Shown piece after piece: positions 1,217 to 20,689 of a stretch of DNA of 39,191 nucleotides. How positions within the stretch are numbered: the stretch's first letter is position 1; each line of letters opens with the position of its first letter. The notes beneath the pieces were generated by a model. The model was not told the DNA's origin and searched no databases. It worked only from the letters and a program-made list of their open reading frames with translations. This DNA is from Candidatus Bathyarchaeota archaeon A05DMB-3 (GTDB lineage Archaea; Thermoproteota; Bathyarchaeia; Bathyarchaeales; Bathycorpusculaceae): positions 1 to 39,191 of the forward strand of contig JABFQN010000016.1 of assembly GCA_019685555.1 (NCBI GenBank). The letters are read 5' to 3'. The position numbers were made by a program, and so were the translations under genes.

Positions 1217-1762
1217 ATGTTTGGGGCGACTGAAATATTTCTTTCTGATAAGGCTTTTTTGAGCATTATCTTATCTTCAGTTGAAGTTTACAAAAATGAA
1301 AGCCATGGAGCTTTGTTGGGCTTTAAGACTCCCAGACGTATAATAGTGGAGTATGCTATTCCATTTCAGTCTGCTAGAAGAAAATTTACTGAGGTTATGC
1401 CTAATTGGCGGAGGGAACTTAAAGTGATTGAAGTTCTTCCAAGACTAATCCATTTGCAAAAACTTGGGTATTATCATTCTCACCCGCAGTTCGGGAAAAA
1501 GCGTGGCACTCCGGAACTTAGTAAAACGGATAGGGAATACATGCAACCGGGTGAAATAGAAATTGTGGTGGCTATCAACGACTCGAAAAGGTCGTCTCCT
1601 TGGAAGGAATCAAAGAATAAATTGTCCGGCACTTTGGGGAAATATCACATTACAATTGCAGGTTTTTACAAGAGAAAAAGGAATGATGAAATAACACAGT
1701 ATAGGGTTTTATGTCCTTACGCGATAGGGTTTGATTATACCTTTGAACAGCCGCTTGTTTAA
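1217..1762 (+). CDS. JAB/MPN (JAMM) domain metalloprotease-like protein
   Basis: This protein of about 181 residues has the JAMM zinc-protease pattern: Glu28 in ESHGALLG, then HSH (His87, His89), Ser102 and Asp105. JAMM enzymes cleave isopeptide or C-terminal bonds of ubiquitin-like proteins, or act on related substrates. The classical spacing is HxH-x7-S-x2-D; here 12 residues separate the second His from the Ser, an insertion rich in Lys/Arg/Gly. No ubiquitin-like, E1 or E2 gene lies nearby, so the substrate is unknown. A GTG at 1199 would add six residues; ATG 1217 was chosen because it is nearer the conserved region, but neither start has a strong SD. No other domain is visible. Confidence 0.7.
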   Translation: MFGATEIFLSDKAFLSIILSSVEVYKNESHGALLGFKTPRRIIVEYAIPFQSARRKFTEVMPNWRRELKVIEVLPRLIHLQKLGYYHSHPQFGKKRGTPELSKTDREYMQPGEIEIVVAINDSKRSSPWKESKNKLSGTLGKYHITIAGFYKRKRNDEITQYRVLCPYAIGFDYTFEQPLV

Positions 1763-1767
1763 AGCTA

Positions 1768-1848
1768 ATGTTTCCGCCATATGTTGTATGGACATTGGTT
1801 CCAGCAGTAGCGGCTGCTCTTATAGGCGCAGTTTTTACATTCTGGTAA
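1768..1848 (+). CDS. Possible 26-residue single-pass membrane peptide
   Basis: This short ORF begins five bases after the stop of the JAMM gene. It encodes MFPPYVVW followed by an almost continuous hydrophobic stretch (TLVPAVAAALIGAVFTFW) and then TAA. The length and composition fit one transmembrane helix with essentially no soluble part. The position suggests co-transcription with the JAMM gene, and a hairpin with a T-run follows directly. No family is recognised. Such a short ORF can arise by chance, but the clean hydrophobic helix and tight spacing make it worth listing. Confidence 0.35.
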   Translation: MFPPYVVWTLVPAVAAALIGAVFTFW

Positions 1849-1851
1849 ATC

Positions 1852-1871
1852 GAAAAGCCTTGGCTTTTTTC
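1852..1871. terminator. Hairpin with T-run between convergent genes
   Basis: GAAAAGCC and GGCTTTTTTC form a seven-base-pair stem with a two-base loop, ending in a run of T on the plus strand and, by symmetry, on the minus strand. It sits just after the short peptide ORF and before the convergent MBL operon, so it could stop transcripts from either side. Confidence 0.35.
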
Positions 1872-2040
1872 TGACACCAGAAGTTTTTTGCATAAAAACT
1901 CTATTCCAAAAATAAACAGTAAGCCCAGCACTTAAACTTTACCAGAAACTGAAGGTGCCTTCAACTAAGACGAAGGACGCGTGAGAACGCTAACAATGGG
2001 GCAAAGGATTCTGGGTAAGTAAAGTTTTGTGAAGGGGCTT

Positions 2041-2658
2041 TTAGGATTGTTTCATGAACTCGATGAATTCCTCAAGTGTGCGTTTTTCAAGGGTGTAATT
2101 CGTTTTTCTCTCCCTGCCTATTGTTGAGTAGGGAAATTCGCCATAATCATGTCCAGGATAAACTTCCACGTCGTCGTCTAGTTTCAAAATTTTGTTGAAG
2201 AGGCTGTTGTACATGTCTTTTGGGTTTCCACCAGGTAGGTCTGTTCTTCCACACTCTCCAATGAAGAGGGTGTCTCCTGTAAGGAGTTTGCCGTTTATTA
2301 ATAGGCATATGCCGTCTGGCGTGTGTCCAGGTGTGTGAATAACTTTTATAACTGTTTTTCCAAGTCTTAAAGTGTCTCCATCTTCTAAACTTATGTGTTT
2401 GTTGATTTTAGAGCGTTTGTGGGCTGCAATTTTTGCGTTGAAAACTTTTTGAAGGTCTTGGTTGCCGGCTGTGTGGTCGCTGTGTCCATGGGTGTTTATA
2501 ATGAATTTCAGTTTGAAGCTTTGCTCTTTCAAAAGTTTTGTTATAATTTCTGCATTAAAACTTGGGTCGACGACGGCAGCATTTTTTGTTGTTTCATCGG
2601 CTATCACGTAGGAGAAGTTGTCTCCATGGTGTTTTATCTGTTTAAAAAACATGCTCAT
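2041..2658 (-). CDS. MBL-fold metallo-hydrolase (glyoxalase II / ETHE1-like)
   Basis: This 205-residue protein contains the full metallo-beta-lactamase metal ligand set: THGHSDH near residue 56, HTPGHTPDG, the TGDTLFIGECGRTDLPGG segment and a final PGHDYG. The GECGRTDLPGG stretch is characteristic of the hydroxyacylglutathione hydrolase / persulfide dioxygenase branch. The protein is thus probably a thioester hydrolase or sulfur-handling oxidoreductase; the substrate cannot be told from sequence alone. It is cytoplasmic, with no signal peptide. ATG 2658 follows an AGAGGGTG SD. It is the last gene of a three-gene operon, seven bases after the unknown 450-residue protein. Confidence 0.85.
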   Translation of the reverse strand: MSMFFKQIKHHGDNFSYVIADETTKNAAVVDPSFNAEIITKLLKEQSFKLKFIINTHGHSDHTAGNQDLQKVFNAKIAAHKRSKINKHISLEDGDTLRLGKTVIKVIHTPGHTPDGICLLINGKLLTGDTLFIGECGRTDLPGGNPKDMYNSLFNKILKLDDDVEVYPGHDYGEFPYSTIGRERKTNYTLEKRTLEEFIEFMKQS

Positions 2659-2665
2659 GCACCCT

Positions 2666-4018
2666 CTAAAGTGGGATGTGTTCGATTTTCATGCCCATTT
2701 TTGCCAAATCCTCCAAATTCTCAACGCAGCCTATGCTGGCGTCTATGTTGCGGTGTTTGGGATGAACCCACATGTGTTTTGGTGAAAGATTAAACTGCAA
2801 GGGAGTTTTCAGCGAAACACCGTATACGTCTAAGCCTCTAATCAAAGCGTTGGTTAGGCATACTTTACGAATCGAAGTGTAACTTTCCAGCAGTTTTTCT
2901 GCGCCGTAGGCGCCTATGCCATGCCATAAAGCTGCGTTTTCCGGAGATGCCAACGAGTAGAGGAAGAACTGGGGCGATGATGGAGTTTCTTTAAATTTGT
3001 AGTTTGTTAGGGCTTCTCCTTCAACCATAAATTCGTCTTCGGCTTTTGCCATGCTTATGTCTTCTGGGTCTATGGCATTCGGATAAAGCGGCGTAGTTTG
3101 ATAGCTCACCTTAACACTTTTCAGTTCTTCTCCTTCAAAATATATTTTGCCCCTTGCCGCGCGCTTTGAACCATAACCCTTAACGGAATGGGGAACCGTT
3201 AAAAGGGTTGTGCGTTTTTTCATGCTTCTACCCATACAGCGGTAGGCGTCTTCTATTGAGCTGTAGCTTCTATGGATATCTTTAATGATGTGGTGTAGCA
3301 ACCCATTAGCGTCTTCTCTTTGCAATGTTTCGATGGGCATGCGCATCGAAGGGAGGCAAAGGTCTATCTCAAAAAATTCAGAAAGCTGCTCCATCTGCTC
3401 ATATTTTACTGCGTCAACCATTTCCACATAGCTGTTACTGTTTTCGAGACGCCGCCTTATCAGTTCAATTTCACCTTGCGATATAAGTGTGCCATCATAT
3501 TTCCGTGCGAAGTTTTCGTCAATCTTCAGCATGCTTGTTTTGACGTAGGCTGACGGAAAGGCGCTTTGTCCGCTTTCAACAATAGACTCTCTAAGCGGGT
3601 TCATTGAGTATCTGTCTGGTTCGATGTCGTCCGTGTTCAGAAGGAAAGAGGTTACTATGCCTTCTTTTGGATTGCGGAGCAGTTCGCATATTTCGTTTAT
3701 GTCGTCCCACGTAATTTCGCTTAAACCGTGATGGTGGAAATAGTTTCCGCAGACTTCAAGCAGCCGAGCGGCAATAATCCCTTGAACCTCTTCCACCGTC
3801 AACTGCGGGTTTGAATATTCAACAGAACCCCTCAGAAAAAAGTGAGGGCCTCTAAGCCTAATTTCACATTTCTTTCCGTTTCGAAAATGGTAAAAGCTGA
3901 ATTCCCGCTTATCGTTTACTTCAAATATGGATAACGCTTTAACTAACTCTTCTACACAGTGCCAAGAGTTTTTTAGGAAGTCTTCAAGAATCATTTTCGC
4001 CAAGTTCTGAGATAACAA
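2666..4018 (-). CDS. Uncharacterised 450-residue protein
   Basis: I recognise no known family. The protein is soluble, with no signal peptide or membrane helix and no obvious nucleotide-binding loop. Features that stand out are a HHHG run near residue 98, a central basic region with KKRTTLLTVPHSVKGYGSKRAARG (given in pieces: KKRTTLLTVPH, then VKGYGSKRAARG), and a His/Trp-rich end around SPKHMWVHPKHRN. The gene lies five bases after a GNAT acetyltransferase and seven before an MBL hydrolase, so all three are probably made from one mRNA. The start is uncertain: TTG 4018 lacks a well-spaced SD, and ATG 3994 would remove eight residues. Confidence 0.75.
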   Translation of the reverse strand: MLSQNLAKMILEDFLKNSWHCVEELVKALSIFEVNDKREFSFYHFRNGKKCEIRLRGPHFFLRGSVEYSNPQLTVEEVQGIIAARLLEVCGNYFHHHGLSEITWDDINEICELLRNPKEGIVTSFLLNTDDIEPDRYSMNPLRESIVESGQSAFPSAYVKTSMLKIDENFARKYDGTLISQGEIELIRRRLENSNSYVEMVDAVKYEQMEQLSEFFEIDLCLPSMRMPIETLQREDANGLLHHIIKDIHRSYSSIEDAYRCMGRSMKKRTTLLTVPHSVKGYGSKRAARGKIYFEGEELKSVKVSYQTTPLYPNAIDPEDISMAKAEDEFMVEGEALTNYKFKETPSSPQFFLYSLASPENAALWHGIGAYGAEKLLESYTSIRKVCLTNALIRGLDVYGVSLKTPLQFNLSPKHMWVHPKHRNIDASIGCVENLEDLAKMGMKIEHIPL

Positions 4019-5515: not shown

Positions 5516-5863
5516 TTACCTTCCAAAAAACCAGAATTTCCTTTTCTCCCCTTTTTCGCTTTTCGCCTTCCTTTCCTCTTCCTCTTTCTGAATCTGATAT
5601 TCTTCTATCTTTTTTACGAGTTTTTCAATATTTTCTGGCTTTTCGGCAAATTTCAAGAGTTTTTCGCTGTCTGGTCCCATAAGGATAAAAAGGGGTTGGA
5701 AGTAGAGGCGCGCCAGTTGGGACCAAACGTGGCTTGTTGGTCCAATGGTTTCTAGGAAGAGCGTTGCAACATTATCCATTTTTGAGTCTACTAGTTTTTT
5801 AGCTATTTTTGAAACCCATTCTTCTTCGTCGCTGTTGTCAAGCTGTTCTTGTTCAAGGTTCAT
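5516..5863 (-). CDS. Small acidic/coiled protein, last gene of the DUF6754 operon
   Basis: This 115-residue soluble protein belongs to no family I recognise. It starts with an acidic region (MNLEQEQLDNSDEEEW) and carries a central hydrophobic-aromatic part (LFLETIGPTSHVWSQLARLYFQPLF). It ends in a strongly charged helix of repeated Glu and Lys, probably coiled coil, followed by KRKFWFFGR. It lies 22 bases after the 234-residue membrane protein and is co-oriented with four membrane genes, so it may be a cytoplasmic accessory subunit whose basic-aromatic tail touches the membrane. That role is inferred from position only. Confidence 0.72.
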   Translation of the reverse strand: MNLEQEQLDNSDEEEWVSKIAKKLVDSKMDNVATLFLETIGPTSHVWSQLARLYFQPLFILMGPDSEKLLKFAEKPENIEKLVKKIEEYQIQKEEEERKAKSEKGEKRKFWFFGR

Positions 5864-5885
5864 TTGGCTTTTCCTTTGCCCCGTA

Positions 5886-6590
5886 CTATTTCTTTTTGAG
5901 GACAGCGAAGGCTATTGCAATAATAGCCAGTATCATCGCCACCAGTGTTGCGTCGAATCTTGGCTGTAGATACTGCAGTATTATGCCTATCAGGAAGCCT
6001 ACTCTAGTCATTATTGTGTTGGCGAATAGGTAGCCGAAACCCACCATCATGCCGTATATTCCAATGGTTACCAGCGCCTTGTACGCTATGCGAACAGGGC
6101 CTGCTTTTCCTTCAGTCTTCGGGAAGAACGTGAAGATGAAGTAGGTTAGTCCGCCGAGGGTTATTAGAATCATGAGCCAGTTGTTGAAGGTTTTCAATGG
6201 GTCGCCCGCCACCCAGAGGGGCAAGACTGCGGCGTTTATCTGCTTTATTATGTTAGCCATAGGTGCTGCTCTTAGGGCTAAGGCTGCTCCGACAGCGACG
6301 TTTACTCCTACACCGTATCTGGCAACCCAATAGTACTTCTTTGAATATTTGAAGAAGAATGTTAGTCCTAAGAGTATTGGGATTATCAAGTGCCAGTATT
6401 CCACACCCTTTACCATTTGGCCGAATGCCGTTCTGTTTAGGCTGTCCAATGATAGTGCTATTGAATAGCCCGCCGCTGTTCCAACGAACAAGTGTTCTGC
6501 AAGTCTATATAGCACGTTGTCTTTGTAGACGAAGCTGTATATCCAAACAATCATGACGGCTGCAAGCCAACCTCCAATCAGCTCAATCAT
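5886..6590 (-). CDS. Polytopic membrane protein of the DUF6754 operon
   Basis: This 234-residue integral membrane protein has roughly six or seven hydrophobic helices, from the N-terminal IGGWLAAVMIVWIYSFV to the C-terminal ATLVAMILAIIAIAFAVLKKK. Between them lie short loops such as GDPLKTFNN. No catalytic motif or transporter signature is recognised. Its ATG overlaps the stop of the upstream 284-residue gene by four bases (ATGA), implying coupled translation and possibly a shared complex. The family is unknown to me; it is described here only as a subunit of the putative membrane assembly. Confidence 0.8.
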   Translation of the reverse strand: MIELIGGWLAAVMIVWIYSFVYKDNVLYRLAEHLFVGTAAGYSIALSLDSLNRTAFGQMVKGVEYWHLIIPILLGLTFFFKYSKKYYWVARYGVGVNVAVGAALALRAAPMANIIKQINAAVLPLWVAGDPLKTFNNWLMILITLGGLTYFIFTFFPKTEGKAGPVRIAYKALVTIGIYGMMVGFGYLFANTIMTRVGFLIGIILQYLQPRFDATLVAMILAIIAIAFAVLKKK

Positions 6591-7441
6591 TTCCTTCTAC
6601 CTCCCTCGGGCTTAGGCTTAGACCTCGTGGCGAATAATATGATGTTTCCGATGATTATGAAGATGAGTATCAGTGCGTGAGCGAAGCTTTGGGCATCCAT
6701 TGAGGCGAGTCCCAACCCTTTTCTGCCTACTAGGGTTTCGTATTCAGCCGCTGACCTCTGCCCTGTAAGCATGCCTATTGCTTGTCCAGCGTCGACGTAA
6801 GGCTTGATTGAAGGCCCTATAACGCTTAATGCGCCGAAGAGTAGCGGAATATCGTAGGGCGTGTACCATTGGCGAACATACCAGCCGAAAGTGTCTGTTC
6901 CAGAAGACGCTATGAAAACAAGGGCGAAGTCTTCAGCTTTGTCGATATTCGCCATCATCTGCAAAGCTGAAATAGCCGTTCCATAATTGTCCACAGCCAC
7001 TGTCCCTCGGATGCTTGTAGCTAAAGACCTAACCGCTGGTTCGTTTCCAGCTATATAACCTAGGAACACGTAGTCAACACCATACGTTTTATCCGCGAAC
7101 AAGTCGGCTGCCGTGGATTTAAGCAGTTCAAACACTATGGGGCCATAAGTGATTGTCGACACAAAGACAAGTTTACAGTTTTTCTCAAAGAGATGTTTGA
7201 TAACTGCTGCTACCTGAGGTTCCAATTCCGCTCTTGCAGCCATCTCATAGTATAGGTCTATTAGGACTGGTTTTCCAGCTGGAAGCGTGTTTTCTATGTA
7301 GTTGTAAACATCTCTCGTCGTTGAAGAAATCCCTATTGGAAGACCAACAGGGTTAAGCAGTGGAATAACTATCGAGATTACGAGCAGCGTATAGATTATC
7401 TGAGCCATGCCGAAAGGTCTACGTTTTTCCTCTTTCGCCAT
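6587..7441 (-). CDS. Membrane-anchored alpha/beta domain protein of the DUF6754 operon
   Basis: This 284-residue protein has an N-terminal transmembrane helix (IIYTLLVISIVIPLLNPVGLPIG), a soluble alpha/beta domain of about 190 residues and a C-terminal helix (FAHALILIFIIIGNIILFA). The soluble part alternates strands and helices (KPVLIDLYYEM, CKLVFVSTI, DFALVFIASSGTDTFGWY). The overall plan is similar to the first protein of the operon, which also carries an alpha/beta domain between membrane helices, so the two may be distant relatives or partners. The function is unknown. It lies one base after the 222-residue gene. Confidence 0.8.
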   Translation of the reverse strand: MAKEEKRRPFGMAQIIYTLLVISIVIPLLNPVGLPIGISSTTRDVYNYIENTLPAGKPVLIDLYYEMAARAELEPQVAAVIKHLFEKNCKLVFVSTITYGPIVFELLKSTAADLFADKTYGVDYVFLGYIAGNEPAVRSLATSIRGTVAVDNYGTAISALQMMANIDKAEDFALVFIASSGTDTFGWYVRQWYTPYDIPLLFGALSVIGPSIKPYVDAGQAIGMLTGQRSAAEYETLVGRKGLGLASMDAQSFAHALILIFIIIGNIILFATRSKPKPEGGRRK

Positions 7442-7442
7442 T

Positions 7443-8111
7443 TTACTCCCTCCTCCCCATCCAAGTGGTTTCTTTGCCGATGATTAGTCGCAATCCCAGT
7501 ATTATCAAGCCGAAGCCTATGCCCATGGTGATTGGTCTAAAGGCCGCAGTGTTTGGAACGTTGTATATCCAGTCTCTCAGCGGGAGGAAGCCTTCCCAAA
7601 TCATTGCTCCAAGGCTTGTGTTTCCAAGCATAACTATTATCGCAACTATCAACAGCAGAATTGCAGGCGGGTTTCTAGCTCTAAAAGTTCTGTAGGAAGC
7701 TGAGGCTATGTAGAAAACCAGTATCGAATACATTGCTGCATCCGCAGGAGCATAAAGGTAAGTGTAAAGCCATTGGAAGTTCGGCTGCGTTGTTATGGCT
7801 ATTCCCGAGGATAGGGCGTAGCATGCGAGTGAAACCATTATTATTTCTAGAACTATGACTATGCTGCTGAAGATTATCTGTCGCCTCTCCCTTTTTCTTA
7901 TTTGGTTTGCATGATACCGCAATATGTCTATTCCACCGACAATGGCGGCAATGGCTGTAATCACAATAGCCCAGTCAGACAGTGCCTTGTCTGCTGTTCC
8001 AAATGCGTCGCTGACTGGCTTTTCTATGTAGAAGAAGTAGAAGATCACCATCAGAACTATTATCAAGGCAACAATTATCTGCGGTATATTGCGTCTTACA
8101 ACAACACTCAT
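7443..8111 (-). CDS. Six-helix membrane protein of the DUF6754 operon
   Basis: This 222-residue integral membrane protein has about six transmembrane helices. The first is IIVALIIVLMVIFYFFYI, and the last (ITMGIGFGLIILGLRLIIG) ends in a basic tail. A basic loop (NQIRKRERRQ) after the second helix suggests its cytoplasmic side. No enzyme or transporter motif is visible. It starts at ATG 8111 after a GGAGGAAT SD and sits 14 bases behind the DUF6754-like gene. It resembles no family I can name and is probably a structural membrane subunit of the operon product. Confidence 0.8.
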   Translation of the reverse strand: MSVVVRRNIPQIIVALIIVLMVIFYFFYIEKPVSDAFGTADKALSDWAIVITAIAAIVGGIDILRYHANQIRKRERRQIIFSSIVIVLEIIMVSLACYALSSGIAITTQPNFQWLYTYLYAPADAAMYSILVFYIASASYRTFRARNPPAILLLIVAIIVMLGNTSLGAMIWEGFLPLRDWIYNVPNTAAFRPITMGIGFGLIILGLRLIIGKETTWMGRRE

Positions 8112-8125
8112 GCGCTCATTCCTCC

Positions 8126-8998
8126 TTATTTAACCAGATACTCAGCCAGTTTAACGCCCATCGGCAGCAGTATCAGCCCCACAACTATCAGAATCCAAGA
8201 AAGCAATTTCCCAATGTCTTGTCCCCTTATAGAAGCAAGGGTTTCAACATCTCCAGAAGCCATGGCACCAGCAGCAAAAATTTCCTCACCTATGAAGGCA
8301 TAGTCTGCAGCAAGCACAAAGAACGGTATTTGAGTTTCACGGGCTGTCCCCGCCACTTGAAAAGCTTCTATGGCTGCTCCGGCTTCCATGAAGATTAGGG
8401 ATTCAGCCCAGAAAGGACCAACAACAATGTTTGCGCCAGCATTTTCCCTTTGTATGGTTGCTTGCACAGCCGAAGCGTATGCAAACTGTTGGTCCGTCAA
8501 ATACCGCACGTTATACGTTACATTGTAAAGCTCGGGTTTTCCGCCAGAATAATAGGCATCTCGAATGATTTCTTCTTCAGCAGCTATCAGTTCTGGAACG
8601 CCGAGTGTTGAAACAAGCTGAGCGCCGTATTTAGCGCAGAGCCTTGCAACATGGCCTAGAACACCTAAACCTGCAAGGTACTGGGGGGCGTTAACGGTTG
8701 ATATAGGGCCGTATCCAAGAGTGAAGTGCACCGTTTTTCCCATCTCAACGGCCCTTGCTATGCCTTCTTCAATTGCGTCAAAAGCCGCGATTTTCCGCAC
8801 GGGGATAGGCTTGCCTCCTCTGGCCTTACCTATGAAGTAGTAGCCCGCAAAGAGCAAAACCAAGAGCAAAACGAAAGACACGTTTCCCGCTTTAGGGTTT
8901 ATGATGCCGAGGCTTTGGTAGTAGCCCACTGACACAACTATCAGAAGCAGAACGAACAGCGCAAGTGCGATCCAAGTTTTATATTTTGCGATGTCCAT
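8126..8998 (-). CDS. DUF6754-like membrane protein, first gene of operon
   Basis: This 290-residue protein has an N-terminal pair of transmembrane helices, a basic linker (KARGGKPIPVRK), an alpha/beta domain of about 180 residues (from AFDAIEEGIARAVEMGKTVH) and one C-terminal helix. The domain matches my recollection of DUF6754, with the segments GYGPISTVNAPQYLAGL and GPFWAESLIFMEAG. DUF6754 has no established function. The longest ORF begins at TTG 9070, but that lies upstream of the TATA box. ATG 8998 has GGGAGAGG (9009-9016) ten bases upstream and was chosen. It heads a five-gene operon and diverges from the MutL-like gene. Confidence 0.78.
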   Translation of the reverse strand: MDIAKYKTWIALALFVLLLIVVSVGYYQSLGIINPKAGNVSFVLLLVLLFAGYYFIGKARGGKPIPVRKIAAFDAIEEGIARAVEMGKTVHFTLGYGPISTVNAPQYLAGLGVLGHVARLCAKYGAQLVSTLGVPELIAAEEEIIRDAYYSGGKPELYNVTYNVRYLTDQQFAYASAVQATIQRENAGANIVVGPFWAESLIFMEAGAAIEAFQVAGTARETQIPFFVLAADYAFIGEEIFAAGAMASGDVETLASIRGQDIGKLLSWILIVVGLILLPMGVKLAEYLVK

Positions 8999-9052
8999 GT
9001 AAAATTTTCCTCTCCCATCCCGTTTTGACAAGAGTTTTGTTTGATGTAGGAT

Positions 9053-9061
9053 GTATATAAG
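9053..9061 (-). promoter_or_regulatory. TATA box of the DUF6754 operon
   Basis: On the minus strand CTTATATAC sits about 59 bases before ATG 8998, which predicts a transcript start near 9030 and a leader of about 30 nt that includes the SD GGGAGAGG. This placement is the main reason to reject the longer TTG 9070 start. Confidence 0.5.
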
Positions 9062-9166
9062 ATTTGTCAAAGGTTTTTTAAACCTAAAAGTTCATTTTTA
9101 ATTGACCTAAAAGGGAAATAGTTCAACAGCTGCAAAGGCTTACCCTCCAGAAACTTACAGAAACAG

Positions 9167-9174
9167 ATATATTA
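9167..9174 (+). promoter_or_regulatory. TATA box of the MutL-like gene (leaderless)
   Basis: ATATATTA is centred about 28 bases before the GTG start at 9198, so the transcript should begin at or within a base or two of the start codon. No SD is present, consistent with leaderless translation. It faces the operon promoter at 9053-9061 across a spacer of about 105 bp. Confidence 0.55.
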
Positions 9175-9197
9175 TTCATGGGCGTGGCTTTATTTTT

Positions 9198-11048
9198 GTG
9201 AAGAATTTGAACAGGAAAGAGCCAAGCTTCATCTTAGCCACAGATGTAGGAAGCACCACAACAAAAGCCAGATTCTTCGGCAAAACCGATGGCGAATGGA
9301 AGTTTCTTTCCAGCGGCGAAGCCCCAACAACCGTGGAAAAACCTGTTGAAGACGTTACGATGGGCATAAGAAACGCTGTGAGAGAAGTGGAGGAACTCAC
9401 AGGTCACCAGATAATAGATTACAACAGCAAGGAACTAAAGTTCATAATGCCCTACAGAGGTGAAAGAACGGGAGTAGATGTTTATGTTTCAACAAGCAGC
9501 GCTGGAGGCGGCCTCCAAATGCTTGTTCAAGGAGTGGTGAAAACTATAACGGCTGAAAGCGCTCAAAGAGCCGCTTTAGGCGCTGGAGCCATAGTAATGG
9601 ACGTCCTATCAGTTGACGACGAAAGGGACACCTATGAAAAAATAAACACGTTGAGGTTTCTAAGACCGGACATAGTTTTGCTGGCTGGAGGCGTGGATGG
9701 AGGAACAAAAACCCATGTTTTAGAGATGGCTGAAATATTGGCTATGGCGAAGCCGCGCCCCCGATTCGAAATAGAATTCCTCCTACCAGTGGTGTATGCT
9801 GGAAATAAAGATGCACGAGAAGATGTGAAGGAAACCCTTGGAGAAAACTTCGATGTAAGAATAACCGAAAACCTGAGACCTACAATAGAAACTGAAAAGG
9901 TTGAACCTGCAAGAGATGCCATTCTACAGCTTTTCATGGAACACGTGATGGCACACGCACCCGGATACGAGAAATTGAAGAAGCTTGTTTCAACCAGTAT
10001 AATGCCGACGCCTGCTGGCGAAGGAATGATGGTGCGAAAATTTTCAGAACTTAAAGGCGTCAACAGCATAGGCGTAGGACTTGGAGGAGCAACAACAAAC
10101 GTTTACTCGTGTTTTGATGGGCGGTTCTTGCGAACTGTCAGCGCAAACCTTGGAATGAGCTACAGCGTAGGCAACGTCCTAAAAGAAACTGGCGTTCAAA
10201 ACGCGAAAAAGTGGGTTCCGTTCGCAGTAAGCGACGAAGAGGTTATGAGCATAGTATACAACAAAATGATAAGACCAACAACGATTCCCATGGCTTTAGA
10301 GGACTTGGTCATAGAACACGCCCTCGCAAGAGAATCCATCAAAATGGCGTTTAACCACCATAAATACTTGGCAAGAGAGCTTAAAGGCTTGAAAAGAGAG
10401 AGAACAATATCAGATATTTTTGAAGAAGTCAAGGCTGAAGACACATACATAGACTTGTTTAGGCTCGACTACATAATAGGCACTGGCGGGCTTCTTTCAA
10501 GAGCCCCTAGAAGAAACCAGTCTATGATGATACTTATAGACGCCTTCCAACCAGTTGGTTTTACACACCTCGTTCAAGACAGCGTTTTTATGATGCCCCA
10601 CTTAGGCGTGCTTTCAACAATCCACCCGAAAATAGCATTAGACATTTTCGAGAAAGAGTGCCTCGTTTATCTTGGAACAGTGATTTCTGGAGCTGGATTG
10701 GGCAAACTTGGCTCTGATATGGCTAAAATAACAATTGAATATAAAGATGGGAAAAAGGAATTCCTAACCCTACAGTTTGGGAAAATAATCAGATTGGAAA
10801 TTCCCCATGAAAGCGAAATTAACGTTACAGCGTCTCCAACCCGCAACTTCAACTTTGGAGCCGGATTCGGCAAAAGCGTATCCAGAAGGGTTAAAGGCGG
10901 CGTGGTTGGCTTAGTCTTCGATGGAAGGGGAAGACCAGTATATATCCCAGAAGATGAGAAGGAGAGGTTTAACATGCTTTTAGACTGGTATTCCTCAATG
11001 AACCTTTATCCAAAAGAAAAAATCGAGGAGTGGAAGACTTGCCTATAA
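9198..11048 (+). CDS. MutL/GlmL-like ASKHA-fold ATPase
   Basis: This 616-residue protein matches the MutL family (PF13941), named after the component associated with glutamate mutase. The actin/Hsp70-type phosphate-1 loop is ATDVGSTTTKARFF (about residues 14-27), and a second phosphate motif is GVGLGGATTNVYSCFDG near the middle. IIGTGGLLSRAPRR and a hydrophobic C-terminal third follow. Family members are thought to be ATPases that repair or activate a partner, like the reactivases of B12 enzymes. No mutase subunit or cobalamin gene is in the window; its neighbours are the DUF6754 membrane operon (divergent) and a KOW-containing protein (overlapping). It starts with GTG and appears leaderless. 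Confidence 0.85.
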   Translation: MKNLNRKEPSFILATDVGSTTTKARFFGKTDGEWKFLSSGEAPTTVEKPVEDVTMGIRNAVREVEELTGHQIIDYNSKELKFIMPYRGERTGVDVYVSTSSAGGGLQMLVQGVVKTITAESAQRAALGAGAIVMDVLSVDDERDTYEKINTLRFLRPDIVLLAGGVDGGTKTHVLEMAEILAMAKPRPRFEIEFLLPVVYAGNKDAREDVKETLGENFDVRITENLRPTIETEKVEPARDAILQLFMEHVMAHAPGYEKLKKLVSTSIMPTPAGEGMMVRKFSELKGVNSIGVGLGGATTNVYSCFDGRFLRTVSANLGMSYSVGNVLKETGVQNAKKWVPFAVSDEEVMSIVYNKMIRPTTIPMALEDLVIEHALARESIKMAFNHHKYLARELKGLKRERTISDIFEEVKAEDTYIDLFRLDYIIGTGGLLSRAPRRNQSMMILIDAFQPVGFTHLVQDSVFMMPHLGVLSTIHPKIALDIFEKECLVYLGTVISGAGLGKLGSDMAKITIEYKDGKKEFLTLQFGKIIRLEIPHESEINVTASPTRNFNFGAGFGKSVSRRVKGGVVGLVFDGRGRPVYIPEDEKERFNMLLDWYSSMNLYPKEKIEEWKTCL

Positions 11049-12184
11049 AAACCTCAAAAGAAAGTTTCGCTTACACACCCGGGTTAAGGATAACCCCTTA
11101 CACTTACATAAGGAGAACCCGCAGTCTCCCATTAAAGGGTGAAATCCTAGTCGAAAAGGGAGACCCTGTAGATTTTGATACAATTGTGGCAAGATGCTGC
11201 CTTGAAGGGATGCCCCACATAATAAAGGTTGCAGAGCTTCTAAACATAGACACAGAAGAAACCATGCGTTATCTTTTAAAAAAGAAGGGGGACAGCGTGA
11301 AAAAGGGAGAAGTCATAGCGAGATACCGCTCCCTATTCGGCTTAATAAACAAGAGTATAGTCGCAGAAGTGGACGGCGTTATAGAAAACATAAACGAAAT
11401 CACGGGACACGTGACAATAAGAGAGCCGCCGAAATTTCTGGAGCTAAAAGCCTACATTAAAGGAAGAGTTGACGACGTGGTTCCCAACGAAGCAGTCGTG
11501 ATAGGAACCTATGGAGCCTTCATACAGGGAATCATAGGGTTTGCCGGAGAAAACTTCGGAGAACTCCGTGTGGCTGTCTCAAACCCGAAAGAAGTTCTTG
11601 AAGCAAACATGATAACAGAAAACGACGCTGAAAAGATAGTTGTCGGAGGCTCATTGGTAACATGGGAAGCCCTAGAAAAAGCATGCAAAACAAAGGTTAA
11701 AGGGATAGTGGCGGGAGGCGCCAAAATGGAAGACTTAGAGAATATTCTAAAAACACGGATAGGCGTAGCCATAACGGGAAGAGAAAACTTGGATTTCACA
11801 TTAATCCTAACAGAAGGTTTCGGAAAACTGCCCATGTCAGAGGCTGCCTTCAAAATACTAAAAGATAACGAGGGAAAAATCGCTGCTGTTAATGGTTCAA
11901 CACAAGTGAGAGCTGGCGTCCTAAGACCAGAAATAATAATACCCCTAGAGAAAGGCAGTCGCCGTCAAGAAAAGGAAGAGCTTGGAGAGGGAAAAATGAA
12001 GGTAGGAAGCATTGTAAGGATAATAAGATTTCCATATTTCGGAGCTGTCGGAAAAGTTGTTGAGCTTCCAGTAGAGCTGAATAAAATAGAGACAGAGTCC
12101 CATGTGAGGGTGGTTAAAGTGGAACTGGCAGATGGGAGAATCGTGACGGTTCCAAGGGCGAACGTTGAAATAGTAGCTGAGTAA
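11039..12184 (+). CDS. MutL-associated protein with biotinyl-like and KOW-like domains
   Basis: This protein of about 381 residues overlaps the end of the MutL-like gene, so the pair is coupled. The N-terminal part has two carrier-like beta-hairpin stretches (LPLKGEILVEKGDPV and KKKGDSVKKGEVIARY), reminiscent of biotinyl/lipoyl folds but without an obvious modified lysine. A central domain alternates GTYGAFIQGIIGFAGENFGEL and AGGAKMEDLENILKTRIGVAITG. The C-terminus (MKVGSIVRIIRFPYFGAVGKVVELP) is KOW-like. The function is unknown. It may be an adaptor between the ATPase and the membrane proteins. TTG 11039 has GAGGAG eight bases upstream; GTG 11030 is the alternative. Confidence 0.72.
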   Translation: MPIKTSKESFAYTPGLRITPYTYIRRTRSLPLKGEILVEKGDPVDFDTIVARCCLEGMPHIIKVAELLNIDTEETMRYLLKKKGDSVKKGEVIARYRSLFGLINKSIVAEVDGVIENINEITGHVTIREPPKFLELKAYIKGRVDDVVPNEAVVIGTYGAFIQGIIGFAGENFGELRVAVSNPKEVLEANMITENDAEKIVVGGSLVTWEALEKACKTKVKGIVAGGAKMEDLENILKTRIGVAITGRENLDFTLILTEGFGKLPMSEAAFKILKDNEGKIAAVNGSTQVRAGVLRPEIIIPLEKGSRRQEKEELGEGKMKVGSIVRIIRFPYFGAVGKVVELPVELNKIETESHVRVVKVELADGRIVTVPRANVEIVAE

Positions 12185-12208: not shown

Positions 12209-12577
12209 CTACTGTTTTTTCTTTAGGCATTTTTCAAAATGCTTTAAAAGTTCGTTGCTCTTTTTCCTGTCTAAAACATCAAGAACAAGGGTTTTATTCT
12301 CAAATGCTAGGATGAGGCTTTCTTCCCGCAGTACAATAGCTGACAAGAACATTAGAACTGCAAGTATGATATAGAAGGGGTTATCAGCGTTAACTATACC
12401 AATTACAGCGAAGATTATTGCCAACAAAAGTAAAGGCTTGCTGAATTTCCGCTTTACACCCACGTTAGCAAGCTTTGACAAGTCGTATTTCTCCTCCACA
12501 GAACCGTTGACAATTTTCAATGTGTCATCTTGAACTACAAGCTTTTTCTTGTTTATCACAATCTCCATTGCAGTCAT
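12209..12577 (-). CDS. Small two-helix membrane protein
   Basis: This 122-residue protein begins with a beta-rich soluble part (MTAMEIVINKKKLVVQDDTLKIVNG...). A hairpin of two transmembrane helices follows (KPLLLLAIIFAVIGIVNA and FYIILAVLMFLSAIVL), and then a second soluble part (LILAFENKTLVLDVL) with a lysine-rich end. A beta domain split by a helical hairpin resembles PH-like membrane proteins seen in many prokaryotes, but no family is assigned. It is convergent with the KOW protein and divergent from the D-aminoacylase, so it is probably a single-gene transcript. Confidence 0.7.
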   Translation of the reverse strand: MTAMEIVINKKKLVVQDDTLKIVNGSVEEKYDLSKLANVGVKRKFSKPLLLLAIIFAVIGIVNADNPFYIILAVLMFLSAIVLREESLILAFENKTLVLDVLDRKKSNELLKHFEKCLKKKQ

Positions 12578-12685
12578 CTTGGCTTCTGTCTCTAAGCTAT
12601 CGATAAGCTGGAATAGGAAAATATAAGAGTTGAGTTATTCCACTTATCTATTTCCAAAAATTATGGCTGAGCGTAGGTGTGGGGC

Positions 12686-14308
12686 ATGTATGATATCCTA
12701 GTTAAAAATGGAAAAGTTGCGGATGGAACTGGCAATCCATGGTTCAAGGCGGACATAGGCATTAAAAATGGGCGGATAGCAGATGTTGGAACATTAAAAT
12801 CTGGCGCAGACAAGGTTATCGACGCCAGCAAAATGGTGGTTTGCCCAGGCTTTATAGATATGCATTCCCACTCAGACTTGGAGCTTCTAATAAACAATTA
12901 TGCCGAAAGCAAAGTTAGACAGGGAGTGACAACAGAAGTTATAGGAAACTGTGGCGTTTCAGGCGCTCCCCTAAACGATGAGCTTAAGGCAAACTTTAGA
13001 AAAGAGAACCCAATACTGGATGAGGCTGGCGTAACGCTAAACTGGTCAACCACGGAGGAGTACTTCAAAACACTAGAAAGAGGCGGATTATCCGTAAACG
13101 TGGCTGCACTTGCCGGACACGCCAACATTAGAGTCTGTGTAATGGGATATGAAAACAGACCTCCAACTAAAAAAGAGCTGGAAGAGATGAAAAAAGTGAC
13201 AGAAGAATCTATGAAGGCTGGGGCTTTCGGCTTATCCACTGGGCTTATTTACCCGCCGAGTTCTTACGCAGACACCAGCGAAATAATCGAGTTGGCTAAA
13301 GTTGTCGCAAAATACGATGGCATATACGCCTCCCACATTAGAGGAGAAGACGCTCCAAGGCTCATTGAATCCATCAGAGAAGCCATAAAAATAGGCGAAT
13401 CCGCCGGCGTTTCAGTACAGATATCCCATCATAAGGCTCATGGTAAGCTCGCATGGGGTAAAGTCAATACAACACTACGGATGATAGAGGAGGCAAGGGA
13501 AAGAGACGTCCAAGTAACATGCGACGTTTACCCGTATACAGCAGCAAGCTTCGGCTTAAGCGCCATACTACCCCCAGAAATCCACGAGGGAGGAATCCCA
13601 AAAATGATTGAAAGGCTGAAAAACTCAAAGTGGCGTAAAAGGATTAGAAAGGAGATGATTGAGGGCTTGCCAAAATGGCCTAGCCCATTTTTAACCGCTG
13701 GCTGGGACTCGATTATGATAGCGTTTTCAAGTAGGCATCCGGAGTATGAGGGCAGAATGATAAGTGAAATTTGCAGTTCGCTTAATGTTGACCCGTTTGA
13801 CTTTGTTTTCAACCTTTTAATAGAGGAAGAAGCATCGGTGCAAGTTGTAAGGTTTACCATGCGAGAAGGAGACGTCTGCACGGTTTTAAGCCATCCAGCG
13901 TCGATGGTGGGTTCAGACGCTTCCATATGTGCAACATACGGATTCCTAAGCAAGGGAAAACCACATCCAAGGGCTTATGGAACATTTCCAAGAGTTTTCA
14001 AGCGATATGTCAACGAGCTTAGTGTTTTAAGACTTGAAGAAGCCGTGAGAAAGATGACGTCTTTCCCAGCCTCCAAACTTAAACTGTTTGATAGGGGAAT
14101 CATAAGGACGGGCATGTGGGCTGACATTGTAATCTTTAACTTGAAGGAAATATCGGATGAAGCAACCTATGCAGACCCCCACAAATACCCAAAGGGCATA
14201 GAATATGTTATCGTTAATGGGGAAATAGTCATAGAGAAAGGCGAACATAGAAAAGTTTTGCCAGGTAAAGTTTTACGCCATAAAACAATACAAAAGAAGG
14301 GGAGGTGA
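12686..14308 (+). CDS. N-acyl-D-amino-acid deacylase (D-aminoacylase) family amidohydrolase
   Basis: This protein of about 540 residues is a TIM-barrel amidohydrolase. It shows the metal-binding HxH in GFIDMHSHSDLELL, the conserved Cys in VIGNCGVSG that bridges the metal in D-aminoacylases, later ligands in YASHIRGED and ISHHKAHG, and the catalytic Asp in MVGSDASIC. The start (MYDILVKNGKVADGTG) and end (GIEYVIVNGEIVIEKGEH) are typical of the family. It hydrolyses N-acyl-D-amino acids or similar amides. ATG 12686 has AGGTG six bases upstream and is preferred over GTG 12677. The next amidohydrolase gene starts at its stop codon, forming a catabolic pair. Confidence 0.85.
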   Translation: MYDILVKNGKVADGTGNPWFKADIGIKNGRIADVGTLKSGADKVIDASKMVVCPGFIDMHSHSDLELLINNYAESKVRQGVTTEVIGNCGVSGAPLNDELKANFRKENPILDEAGVTLNWSTTEEYFKTLERGGLSVNVAALAGHANIRVCVMGYENRPPTKKELEEMKKVTEESMKAGAFGLSTGLIYPPSSYADTSEIIELAKVVAKYDGIYASHIRGEDAPRLIESIREAIKIGESAGVSVQISHHKAHGKLAWGKVNTTLRMIEEARERDVQVTCDVYPYTAASFGLSAILPPEIHEGGIPKMIERLKNSKWRKRIRKEMIEGLPKWPSPFLTAGWDSIMIAFSSRHPEYEGRMISEICSSLNVDPFDFVFNLLIEEEASVQVVRFTMREGDVCTVLSHPASMVGSDASICATYGFLSKGKPHPRAYGTFPRVFKRYVNELSVLRLEEAVRKMTSFPASKLKLFDRGIIRTGMWADIVIFNLKEISDEATYADPHKYPKGIEYVIVNGEIVIEKGEHRKVLPGKVLRHKTIQKKGR

Positions 14309-14313
14309 ATAAA

Positions 14314-15564
14314 GTGGAGAAAAAGAGGGAGGAAGTAACCTGCATAAAAGCGGGTTTATTAATCGACGGAACTGGAAGAGAACCATTAACAAACCCGGTA
14401 GTTGTCATAAAAGGAGACAAAATCGCAGAAATTGGAAAAGAAAGCGAAATAAAAATTCCAGAAGAGGCAAAAATTGTTGACTTGGGAAACCTAACAATTT
14501 TGCCTGGTTTAATAGACGCCCACGTTCATATCTACGGTCGTAGAAGCTACAGTCCAGCTGAGGAGATAATAACCCCCCATGATTTGGCTGTTATTCGGTC
14601 GGTGGAAGACTGCTGGAAGATTTTGAAAGCTGGTTTCACAATGGTAAGGGACCTTGGAAGCACCATAGCCCTATCTCTGAAACGCGCAGTAAATGAGGGA
14701 ACAATCTCTGGGCCGAGAATCTTTGCCGCTGGGAGACCCATCTCCCAGACAGGTGGGCATTCAGACATTCACTACCTTCCAAGAGAAGAGGTAATAAAGA
14801 AAGGGGCATTAATCGCCGATGGTCCGGATGACTGCCGCCGCGCAGCTAGAGAAGCCTTACGAGACGGAGCAGACCTTATAAAAATAATGACTTCCGGCGG
14901 AATCGGCTCTGAGAAAGATCATCCGCGTTATCCGCAGTTTACAGTTGATGAAGTTAAGGCTATAACAGAAGAAGCCCATAGGGTTGAGCGGAGAGTTGCT
15001 TCCCACGCCGAGGGAGTTGAAGGCGTGAAAATCGCCATTTTAGGCGGAGTTGACTCAGTGGAACACGGCTTTTTCTTGGACGAGGAGTCTGTGCAAATGA
15101 TGATTAGCCGAAACATTTACTTTGTGCCCACACTCTGCCTAGTCGAAGTTTATAAAAAGGCTTTGGAACGCCCTTACGACATGCCGCCGTGGAGGCTTAA
15201 AAAACAAGAGGAATGCATAGATGCCATGCCGAAAAGTTTCATGATGGCTTACAAGGCTGGAGTTAAAATCGCCGCCGGGACAGACTATTTTGGGCCTCCT
15301 CTGAGGGCGCATGGAGACAACGCTGACGAAGCGATAACCATGGTTAAGTATGGCATGAAACCCATGGACGCGATACTTGCTGCTACAAGAAATGCTGCTG
15401 AATGCATAGGAGTGCAAAACACGGTTGGCACTGTGGAAAGGGGAAAACTTGCCGACATAATTGGAGTGCAGGGCAACCCGCTTGAGGATATAACTGTGCT
15501 TAAGAAAGTGGATTTCGTCATGAAAGAGGGAAGAATATACGTCAACAGACAAACAGCCATTTAA
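14314..15564 (+). CDS. Metal-dependent amidohydrolase (imidazolonepropionase/prolidase-like)
   Basis: This protein of about 416 residues has the amidohydrolase motifs GLIDAHVHIYG, the bridging-Lys strand DLIKIMTSGGIG, ASHAEG, SVEHGFF and the catalytic Asp in AAGTDYFG. It belongs to the branch that includes imidazolonepropionase-like and Xaa-Pro dipeptidase-like hydrolases; the substrate is not certain. A strong SD (GGAGGTGA, 14301-14308) is correctly spaced from GTG 14314, so this was taken over GTG 14305. The SD overlaps the stop codon of the D-aminoacylase, indicating coupled expression and probably joint breakdown of peptides or acylated amino acids. Confidence 0.82.
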   Translation: MEKKREEVTCIKAGLLIDGTGREPLTNPVVVIKGDKIAEIGKESEIKIPEEAKIVDLGNLTILPGLIDAHVHIYGRRSYSPAEEIITPHDLAVIRSVEDCWKILKAGFTMVRDLGSTIALSLKRAVNEGTISGPRIFAAGRPISQTGGHSDIHYLPREEVIKKGALIADGPDDCRRAAREALRDGADLIKIMTSGGIGSEKDHPRYPQFTVDEVKAITEEAHRVERRVASHAEGVEGVKIAILGGVDSVEHGFFLDEESVQMMISRNIYFVPTLCLVEVYKKALERPYDMPPWRLKKQEECIDAMPKSFMMAYKAGVKIAAGTDYFGPPLRAHGDNADEAITMVKYGMKPMDAILAATRNAAECIGVQNTVGTVERGKLADIIGVQGNPLEDITVLKKVDFVMKEGRIYVNRQTAI

Positions 15565-16718: not shown

Positions 16719-17453
16719 TTGCCGGAAACAAAGCAAAAAAAGCCCATAATCCAACTGGTAGACGTTTACAAAGAATACAGAGCTGGAACCATTTCAACAT
16801 TAGCCCTAAAAAGGGTAAACTTCCAAATACACAGGGAGCAGGTTATCGCCATAATGGGGCCTTCCGGTTCTGGAAAAACTACACTTCTTAACATGATAGG
16901 GCTTCTGGACAGACCTACAAAAGGGAAGATTTTCTTCGACGGTCTTGACGTTTTAAGGCTTGACGATAAAACATTGGCGAATTTACGCAACACCAAGCTT
17001 GGCTTCGTCTTTCAAACCTTCAATTTAGTCAATAGGTTAAGTGTTTTTGAAAATGTTGAGCTGCCCCTTATACCTCGCGGGATTCCCCGAGGTGTTAGGG
17101 CAAAAATGGTTTTGGATGCTATAATAAAAGTCGGCGGCGATGAAAGTTGGCTTTCCAAAAAGCCGAACCAGCTTTCGGGTGGACAACAGCAACGGGTGGC
17201 AATTGCAAGAGCCATCGTTGGAAAACCAGTTGTGTTGTTGGCGGACGAGCCCACAGGCAACTTGGACAGAGCCTCCGCCAAAGTTGTCGTAAAAACTTTC
17301 TTAAACCTTAACAAGGCAGGACACACCGTGGTGGTTGTAACTCACGACCCCGAGGTGGCAAACTGCATGGATAAAATATATGTCATAAGAGATGGCGAAA
17401 TTATAGACGAATACTCGTCTAATAAGGCAGAATCCCTTATTAACAAAGTTTAA
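16719..17453 (+). CDS. ABC transporter ATP-binding protein (MacB/LolD-type)
   Basis: This 244-residue ATPase has all key motifs: Walker A GPSGSGKT (residues 47-54), Q-loop around Gln99 (VFQTFNL), signature LSGGQ (152-156), Walker B VVLLADE (171-177) and the H-loop His209 in VVTHDPEV. Its sequence type (VYKEYRAG..., [17 protein letters not shown]) is that of the LolCDE/MacB subfamily, which drives FtsX-fold permeases from the cytoplasm rather than solute channels. It starts at TTG 16719 after a GGTGATGGGG stretch. The two following genes, 26 and 21 bases apart, encode a giant exported protein and the permease. Confidence 0.92.
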
Positions 17454-17479
17454 AAACTCATAGAACAGGTGGAGCAGAC

Positions 17480-20400
17480 ATGAAAACCTTAAAGAAAATT
17501 TTAACCCTCATGTTAGTCCTTACACTAACACTGCAATATTTGTCAATGCTTGCAAATAGAACCTATGGAAACACAACACACGACTTCAACATCGTCCACA
17601 TTAATGTAAGGTCTTCAGCAGACACGGCGGACATATACCCAGGCAGCAGAGGAGTTACATTAAAGATTCAAGCAGTCTACCAGAATGATACTCCAGCCAT
17701 GAGCGTGGTTGGGTGGCTTAACACAACAGAGGGCATAAGCTTTAACGCGAGAAGTGGAGCATGTTCCCCAGCACAACTGCTTAACGGAAGCATAGCTGAA
17801 AACGTGAGCAAAGGCGTCTACGTTGCATTTGAGTATTTACTTGACATTTCCCGTTCCGTCAATACTGGAAATCACACTTTGTGGCTTAATATAACCTACG
17901 TTAGAGAAAGCATCTTCACACATGAACTGCATCCAATAAACGTAACAGTTTCGCCTTATCCTCCCATATCTTTAAGAGTTGTAGACGCCTATTTTTCACC
18001 CGCCTCTTATCCGGATTCCGTTGACACGAACCTTTACGTAATCCTAGAAAACAATGGCAGCACCATAACATCTACAAATTTCAACATAACACTACCGGAA
18101 AACTTCACCATTAAAAATCCGCGGGCAAGCACAGGCCTTGTCAACAGAGGAGACCGTTTCACATTAACTTTTACGGGGATATCCATACCAACAAATGCTC
18201 AAGTCGGCTTTTATAATGGCACCATCTATGCAGACTGCAGCGCAAGAACAGAAGACGGAGTTGCCTACAGCAACACTACAATGTTAAATGTCAAGATAAG
18301 TGTAGAAAGCCCACCTCCAGAAGAACCCATCATGATGGCGGCTGTAAACACACTTTATAATGGTGTTCCAGCACCGCTGCTCCCATCCGCAAGAAACGCT
18401 GTTTTGAGGGTATACCTCATCAATAGGCTTACTGACGCCATAAGCGCTATGGCTTTGAACATCACAGTTCCAGATGGAATGCATGTCAGAGCTGTTTCCG
18501 GCACATACATTAACGGAATGGTGTCCGGCGGCACATGTTACGTCGATATTACCCTTGATATTGACTCCAATGTTGCGGAAGGAAAATATGATGGAGTGTT
18601 GAACGTGACTTACCTCAAAATTGTTTCCGGCGCGTCCTTTCTGTTAAATCAAACTGTGAGTTTCCCAATTAACGTGGAGAGTGTTCACAGCTATATGTCT
18701 GAGTTGGTTCTTGTTAGTGCTTACTGGGGATATCCAGATCCAACACCCGTTTACTCTATCTCGCGGTATGTGCCATTAACAATTAGGCTAGTCAATTATG
18801 GGCGGTATGATGTCTGGGGTGTTGTTGTAAACGCCTCTTCACGGAGTCTCATGCCTATAAAAGATTCGGAGGCTTGTGCTGCAACAGTTGCAAGGGGAGG
18901 CTCATGCACGGCGGTTTTCTACTTCGATATAGACACCACTGCCTTAAGCGTTCCGGTAGATGTCTCGGCAAACTATATATTTGCAGAGTTTGGAACCCAC
19001 ATCAGCGCGGTTAGGAATTTTACAGTTTCTTTACCCGTGGAAATTTATCCAGCTTCTGAAAGCATCTTATCCATAGTTGACGCTGGTTGGCAAAACGGCG
19101 TCAACGTCTTTCCGCAAACAAGCAACGCCACGTATCAAGTAACATTGGCGAATAGGGCGCCTTACTCGATAAGCGGGATAAACCTCAAATTGAAGCTTCC
19201 AGAAGGAATCGCTTCGAAAGGGCGAAACGAAGCAACATCATACATTGAAGGCCCCATAAGAAGCTTAGCCACGTTCACCGCCTCATTCACAATTTCAGTT
19301 GACAACATACAAGTAGGAAGCTACAACGCAAACCTAACAGTTGACTGTATACTGCTTTCCGGCGGTCCAGGAGTTAGGCGTATCGAAAACTTCACTGTAC
19401 AGATATTTGTAAACGATGATGTTTCAGCCTTGGAAATTGTGGAATCCAGATGGTATGAAGGCACGGTTGGACCCCAAACCTATGGCGCCCACCTAATAGT
19501 ACTGATTAGAAATGTTTACGTGGACGGGCTTCATGGCGCAATACTCGAAATCGACTTACCGGAAGGCATCTACAACGCCATAGACAACTCAAGCCATATT
19601 AAAGCCACGCCCTTATCCGTGCAGCTACAATTGCCACTACAACAACAGAATCTCGCGGAAATTTTAAACGCGTTTTTAAGCTCCCAACAGGCGAATCCAG
19701 CGCAGGTTTACGGCAGAGGAGACATTTTAACTTTCACACTAGCCCTCAACCTTTTCGACGTTGAAGTTGGAAGCTACACGTTAGATGGGCGGCTTTCCTA
19801 CATTGACTTGTGGGGCGGCAGCAGAAAAATCCCACTGACGATTTCAGTTGCCGTGCTTGGAAAAGCCGGATACATCGAAGTCGCCATAGACCAAAGTATA
19901 AGTGTAAGAAGCCGCTACGTTAACACTTCGCTTACACTTGTAAACCATGGAAGCACACCAATGTATGACGTTTACATAGCTGTTTCGCCATATCAAGGAA
20001 CACCCATCCTAATAGCGTCCCCAACAGTGAACCATGTTGAAAAAATAGACCCTGGAAAGGAATTCGCAATACCCATAACGTTAGCCTACAACCCTATTGG
20101 GTTTTATGCCCAAACTGGCGCGGCGCCAGCCATAACTTATGGGCCTGTCCCCTTAATTGTTTCAGTCTTCTATAGAGACGCAAGCGGATACTATCGAACC
20201 TTCAATAACTCCGTGACGGTTGTTGTTGAACCCTTCATAGAGCTTTTAATAAGAAATGTGCGGGGCACAGGAACAAACGCCTCCTCAACCGTAACTGGAA
20301 TCCTTGTTAATTATGGCTCTTCAACAGCCTACCGCGTCGAGGTAGAACTGAAAATCGGAGACACTGTGCAGTCTGAAAATATAGGAGATGTCGGCCCCGG

Positions 20401-20668: not shown

Positions 20669-20689
20669 AAACACGGAAGAGGCACAGAA

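Follow-up and report, generated by a model that had tools for sequence, protein, structure and literature searches.

A two-module gene system linking DUF6754 membrane cassettes to a MutL-family ATPase in archaea and bacteria, and its possible role in the import of amino-acid-like compounds

Introduction

What does a membrane protein of the DUF6754 family, encoded together with four close neighbors directly opposite a MutL-family ATPase, do for its host? The question is raised by seven genes, here called A to G, at positions 5516–12,184 of a 39,191-nucleotide stretch from Candidatus Bathyarchaeota archaeon A05DMB-3 (GenBank assembly GCA_019685555.1, contig JABFQN010000016.1, positions 1–39,191), which is referred to below as the window. 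DUF6754 (PF20539) is a family without a described function, and we report here its fixed gene cassette and its partners F and G. Our analysis points to a membrane system of two modules that had not been described before; its likeliest function, a reading to which we give a probability of roughly 0.5, is the import of peptides or other compounds resembling amino acids. One module is an autonomous E-D-C-B cassette with as many as 27 copies in a genome, and the other is a shared A-F-G set; this two-module organization is strongly supported.

Gene order and distribution

Genes A, B, C, D and E lie on the minus strand with intergenic spacings of only 22, −4, 1 and 14 bp, while F and G, on the plus strand, overlap by 19 bp. 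All seven open reading frames (ORFs) were recovered, in agreement with a first-pass annotation of the sequence that had described five tightly packed genes facing an overlapping pair. The 105-bp promoter region given there needs correction: with the listed starts the divergent gap between the E and F operons is 127 bp (9071–9197). E starts at an uncertain TTG codon, and use of an alternative internal ATG at 8998 (M25) would widen the gap to ~199 bp. The divergent F/E layout recurs in locus L033 of a Thermoprotei metagenome-assembled genome (MAG), whose E is 62% identical. The window's genome contains one DUF6754 gene, one G gene and one MutL gene.

Homologues of all seven genes are arranged in the same way across many phyla, which excludes a chance association. 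Profile searches of the neighborhoods covered 103 copies that no contig end interrupts, and in 99 of these, from archaea as well as many phyla of bacteria, the E-D-C-B order was intact. The second and fourth genes of the cassette, D (7443–8111) and B (5886–6590), both encode proteins whose hydrophobic segments indicate polytopic membrane proteins, and about 105 and about 100 same-position homologues were collected for them, respectively. Scanning one genome from each species added 79 loci from Bacillota, Zixibacteria, WOR-3, Planctomycetota, Acidobacteriota, Ignavibacteriota, Eisenbacteria, Latescibacteria, Bathyarchaeota, Culexarchaeia and other groups. Among 200 genomes from the phylum of the window, DUF6754 was present in four, namely that of the window and three, with 6 or 7 copies each, that belong to a different genus; ten copies from two of the latter genomes were each part of an E-D-C-B cassette, with F-G not alongside. 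A plasmid search returned no E homologue. The best identities hinted that the window locus had been transferred from Bacillota, but the E tree, where the window's E falls with archaeal sequences, does not support this.

In several lineages both modules share one locus. A-F-G-E-D-C-B forms a single operon in Phycisphaerae, Planctomycetes and an acidobacterium (L049, L057, L058, L062, L066, L068, L077 and L086). Single loci read F-G-x-A-E-D-C-B or A-F-G-E-D-C-B in Bathyarchaeota (L067, L098 and L110) and A-E-D-C-B-F-G or E-D-C-B-F-G-A-A-F-G in Bacillota (L035 and L038). The first-pass annotation had staked its proposal on DUF6754 and MutL homologues not being rarely found together outside this lineage; in the gene-neighborhood survey the association survived and was not confined to the window's lineage.

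Presence and absence of the genes were compared across whole genomes as well. Of 199 Planctomycetota genomes sampled, 50 had E, 48 had G and 49 had full-length F. Both E and G were found in 45 genomes, E alone in 5, G alone in 3 and neither in 146, so that 45 of the 53 positive genomes carry both (Fisher p ~3e-35, a value that overstates independence because the genomes are interrelated; for E and F, p = 4e-34). All three genes occurred together in 44 genomes. In the phylum of the window, E and full-length G were present in the identical four of 200 genomes. G was present in 26 of 29 E-holding genomes.

An amplifiable cassette and a shared module

Copy numbers set the two modules apart. E reaches 7 copies per genome in Culexarchaeia, 14–15 in Fermentithermobacillaceae and 27 in one Bacillota MAG, whereas F-G is usually present as one pair per genome; some Bacillota have as many as ~11 matches to G. 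Such an excess of E over F-G is expected for variable units with one common driver. In Culexarchaeia, the sole F-G pair occupies another part of the chromosome, apart from all seven cassettes. AFG-linked cassettes are scattered over the E tree, where well-supported branches force at least 12 changes; one kind of driver is thus linked to cassettes of many kinds. Among within-genome paralogues E is the most conserved subunit (40–45% vs. 30–38% for D, C and B), which fits a shared inner contact. Thus, the single seven-gene machine proposed earlier is strongly supported by the conserved operons, the co-occurrence, and the F-G pairing and fusions described below, but is here refined to two modules.

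The genome with 27 DUF6754 matches (G217, a 3.8-Mb Bacillota MAG) represents an unusual amplification of an uncharacterized membrane family.

In Zixibacteria and Ignavibacteria, three cassettes stand in tandem (L094, L096, L075, L088 and L111), and their E proteins group across phyla by position, in separate clades, which indicates that the array is old. It looks as if each of the three cassettes had a distinct role.

The F-G pair and protein A

F (9198–11,048, plus strand, 616 residues) matched the Pfam MutL family (PF13941) over the whole model with an E-value of 6.6e-117, which bears out its earlier designation as an ASKHA ATPase of this family. The nucleotide-binding motifs DxGSTTTK, GGATT and GG (phosphate-1, phosphate-2 and adenosine) were invariant in 21 homologues, and the mean column identity was 59%. 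The protein exceeds the Pfam model by ~120–130 C-terminal residues and scores below all three NCBIfam cut-offs, which cover GlmL and Or-4 (224.1 vs. 475 bits for NF040745, 225 vs. 600 for NF040744 and 162.3 vs. 204.05 for TIGR01319). Judged by its sequence, F is a member of the MutL/ASKHA superfamily that fails the curated GlmL tests; it differs from GlmL further in that it is always paired with G and its companion is a membrane complex, not a B12 mutase. A search of solved structures by sequence found no homologue of F.

The first-pass annotation had stated that no glutamate mutase or B12 gene is present. This holds for the neighborhood, which lacks glutamate mutase S/E genes, and the glutamate-mutase epsilon subunit (PF06368) has no match in the genome; the genome does, however, encode six B12-binding domains outside the neighborhood.

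The gene after F was G in 25 of 25 cases with room for a next gene, and two F-G fusion ORFs were found in genome G393 (L181, 836 residues, 1310–3817; L182, 825 residues, 1275–3749). G (11,030–12,184, plus strand) appears to consist of a barrel-sandwich-hybrid N-terminus, a central domain and a KOW-like C-terminus. Its matches to Pfam biotinyl-lipoyl and RnfC_N-like families were weak (0.003–0.006; Biotin_lipoyl 17.8 bits against a cut-off of 22.1). Used as a profile, it gave weak KOW-region matches to SPT5 and NusG (E 0.001–0.05) and no Pfam KOW match, and a sequence search of solved structures again returned weak KOW-region and barrel-sandwich (GcvH-like) matches. No solved protein sharing its domain combination was found in a profile search of structures. 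G therefore resembles RnfC/barrel-sandwich and KOW proteins weakly, at the level of domains. The earlier label "carrier-like/KOW" is retained for the fold but not for a carrier: no lysine in the barrel-sandwich region is shared by all 18 aligned homologues, so a role of G as a lipoyl or biotin carrier is improbable, and "carrier-like" describes a fold, not a demonstrated function.

A (5516–5863, minus strand) encodes a small, charged, soluble protein of 115 residues with no hydrophobic segment and no Pfam match. Its alignment contains a conserved TPAI..LE..KPL..GSQ-type motif, and 27 homologues, from many phyla, adjoin F, G or E.

Some further variants of the pair were observed. The L181 and L182 fusions have neither the C-terminal extension of F nor the KOW part of G, and no E-D-C-B lies nearby. 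C37 of genome G348 may carry a frameshifted F-G fusion. Bacillota loci L197–L201 and L207–L209 hold extra F-G pairs beside unrelated genes, with a longer G that in many cases apparently has a duplicated barrel-sandwich region.

Predicted fold and topology of E and C

E (8126–9070, minus strand) belongs to DUF6754 with an E-value of 1.6e-70 and 237.6 bits against a gathering cut-off of 27, as the first-pass annotation had proposed. Its description of two proteins with an alpha/beta domain held between membrane helices was likewise borne out: AlphaFold2 gave confident models of E and of C (6587–7441, minus strand), each with a Rossmann-like alpha/beta domain between two transmembrane (TM) segments (mean predicted local distance difference test scores, pLDDT, 88.5 and 94.7). 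The fold and topology of the system are supported by prediction. Alignments show many conserved acidic and polar residues in both Rossmann-like domains. Despite the shared TM-alpha/beta-TM layout, homology between E and C was undetectable by profile comparison, as was that between D and B. Pfam and NCBIfam profile searches assigned no meaningful family to A, B, C or D, and a sequence search found no homologues of E or C among solved structures.

Bacterial E proteins carry a signal-peptide-like segment and an FN3-like domain ahead of the first TM segment, after which the net charge averages +2.33 (57 homologues). We place the E domain in the cytoplasm because of this N-terminal extension and the basic stretch after TM1. 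In C, the charge is −0.44 after TM1 and +3.02 after TM2 (66 homologues); since the basic stretch follows the last TM segment, its domain is placed outside. The Pfam fn3 match of long-form E was below the cut-off (E = 0.007, one protein), and "FN3-like" therefore refers to a sequence pattern.

Neighboring genes and hosts

Genes directly beside dispersed cassettes include those for M20, M24, S9, S10, M9 and TldD/PmbA peptidases, creatininases, D-aminoacylase-like amidohydrolases, an aminotransferase, and IclR/RpiR regulators. Amidohydrolases are among the leading families in the tally of adjacent genes (118 genes) and are not in the top 25 of the distant-gene tally (130 genes), a near-versus-far comparison that gives modest support. 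In the window, two amidohydrolase genes (12,677–15,564, plus strand), D-aminoacylase-like and Xaa-Pro-dipeptidase-like, follow a convergent small gene; they are probable context genes and not part of the core, and the same enzyme classes are found beside cassettes elsewhere. By eye, the gene after B in L033 has an M20 peptidase sequence pattern. Published work describes the host groups as fermenters of peptides and amino acids (PMC9723716, PMC10215811).

Comparison with known systems

No known system that we tested, and none in the literature searched, matches the seven-gene set; in that literature DUF6754 and PF13941 are unmentioned, and nothing relevant was found on MutL/ASKHA proteins with membrane systems. 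In group II energy-coupling factor (ECF)-type ATP-binding cassette (ABC) transporters, a shared energizing module serves many S components. The present system would be alike in having one common energizing module for many divergent membrane units, which lie scattered next to catabolic genes, but it has an ASKHA instead of a P-loop ABC ATPase and a four-gene membrane unit, and we found no sequence relation. ASKHA proteins of the PilM/FtsA type act on membrane complexes, and F would similarly be a cytoplasmic ASKHA ATPase acting on a membrane assembly; however, it comes from a different subfamily, and the set includes no pilus or division gene.

Possible function

An importer is the best fit for many divergent membrane units that share one ATPase module, for a receptor-like domain facing outward and for catabolic neighbors; the physical complex, transport, its substrate and coupling to ATP are inferred. 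E, D, C and B would form one membrane unit, in which the extracytoplasmic Rossmann-like domain of C may serve as the substrate receptor, D and B may provide a membrane-spanning translocation path, and the cytoplasmic Rossmann-like domain of E may be the coupling site. Together with G, its obligate partner, and the small A protein, F would act on this unit from the cytoplasm, with ATP driving or gating it, and a single A-F-G module could serve many different E-D-C-B units. The interpretation given in the first-pass annotation, in which the ATPase and its KOW partner act on the membrane complex, is partly supported overall.

Several results count against an importer. Pfam and NCBIfam searches found no periplasmic binding protein, channel, ABC or other transporter family above the cut-off in A–G, and Foldseek found no close fold for E or C in the PDB but just nonspecific Rossmann-like matches (TM-score ≤ 0.36 by query length). 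MutL/ASKHA relatives are mostly known or presumed enzyme activators, not transport motors. The enrichment of M20 peptidases is modest (5 of 118 adjacent vs. 3 of 130 distant genes), and cassette-bearing genomes are peptidase-rich overall. Finally, inspection by eye identified housekeeping neighbors in low-copy bacteria: rpsA (L052/L065), plsX (L049/L089), and TolQ/TolR near F-G (L145/L146).

The last point is why a cell-envelope machine driven by F-G-A, acting in lipid or protein transfer or in envelope maintenance, is kept as the main rival, albeit an unlikely one; the peptide-gene context seen in some lineages would then be secondary. The plsX, rpsA and TolQ/TolR contexts (the last near F-x-G in two phyla) are joined on this side by the FN3-like extracytoplasmic domain of bacterial E, by an extra small PH-like membrane protein encoded upstream in Planctomycetota and others, and by the three tandem cassettes kept as three clades in Zixibacteria and Ignavibacteria. 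It is hard to square a housekeeping role with amplification to 7–27 divergent cassettes that neighbor genes for catabolic enzymes and IclR/RpiR regulators, and the system is also found in archaea, which have other lipids and usually no outer membrane. The same catabolic neighbors would suit a membrane-bound enzyme complex whose substrates derive from amino acids, with E or C catalytic and F as an ASKHA reactivase or activase. This agrees with the membership of F in the MutL/GlmL family, GlmL being a presumed reactivase/activase for glutamate mutase, and with the conserved acidic and polar residues of E and C. Pfam, NCBIfam and solved-structure sequence searches recognized no cofactor-binding family in any subunit, however, the genome has no match to the glutamate-mutase epsilon subunit, and two polytopic subunits with an extracytoplasmic domain would be unusual for an activase target; we regard this second rival as quite unlikely.

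A signaling or receptor complex, in which C senses outside ligands, E relays the signal inward, and F and G respond, would explain the paired external and internal domains and the many paralogues beside catabolic genes. The cassette contains no kinase, cyclase or DNA-binding output, and the strong conservation of F, with intact nucleotide motifs, is more like that of a motor or chaperone ATPase, which makes this third rival improbable.

Should the importer reading be correct, it would describe a transport system on the ASKHA ATPase fold, to our knowledge not known to energize the transport of solutes. More tentatively, the system may represent a new class of primary active transporters of archaea and bacteria, with a MutL-type ASKHA-fold ATPase in place of a P-loop one and a shared F-G-A driver for many substrate-specific four-protein units. 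An importer may also be a main route of nutrient uptake in Fermentithermobacillaceae and Culexarchaeia, little-known peptide-fermenting lineages with 7–15 copies per genome. Even without import, a defined seven-part system emerges from one DUF and six families that were unnamed or misnamed, and "glutamate mutase L" annotations are misleading in these genomes.

Additional observations

Just upstream of A or E, several bacterial loci encode a ~140-residue membrane protein with weak similarity to bacterial PH (bPH) domains (L049:5799–6221, L051:9417–9869, L057, L058, L062, L066 and L082), a possible eighth component in bacteria. A window gene at 12,209–12,577 (122 residues, two TM segments) gives weak bPH hints and may be its counterpart. 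In L145 (6898–12,387) and L146 (9248–14,628), from an Ignavibacterium and a member of Zixibacteria, F and G flank a ~270-residue exported, C-terminally anchored protein and adjoin the TolQ/TolR-like genes. A ~310-residue protein is encoded between G and A in Bathyarchaeota L067, L078 and L098, and a relative with DUF483 similarity lies beside cassettes in a Bacillota MAG (L034:8699–9604). Further along the window (16,719–21,901), one gene run encodes an ABC ATPase, a 1062-residue NEW3-domain protein and a MacB/FtsX permease, probably an export or tripartite-like system.

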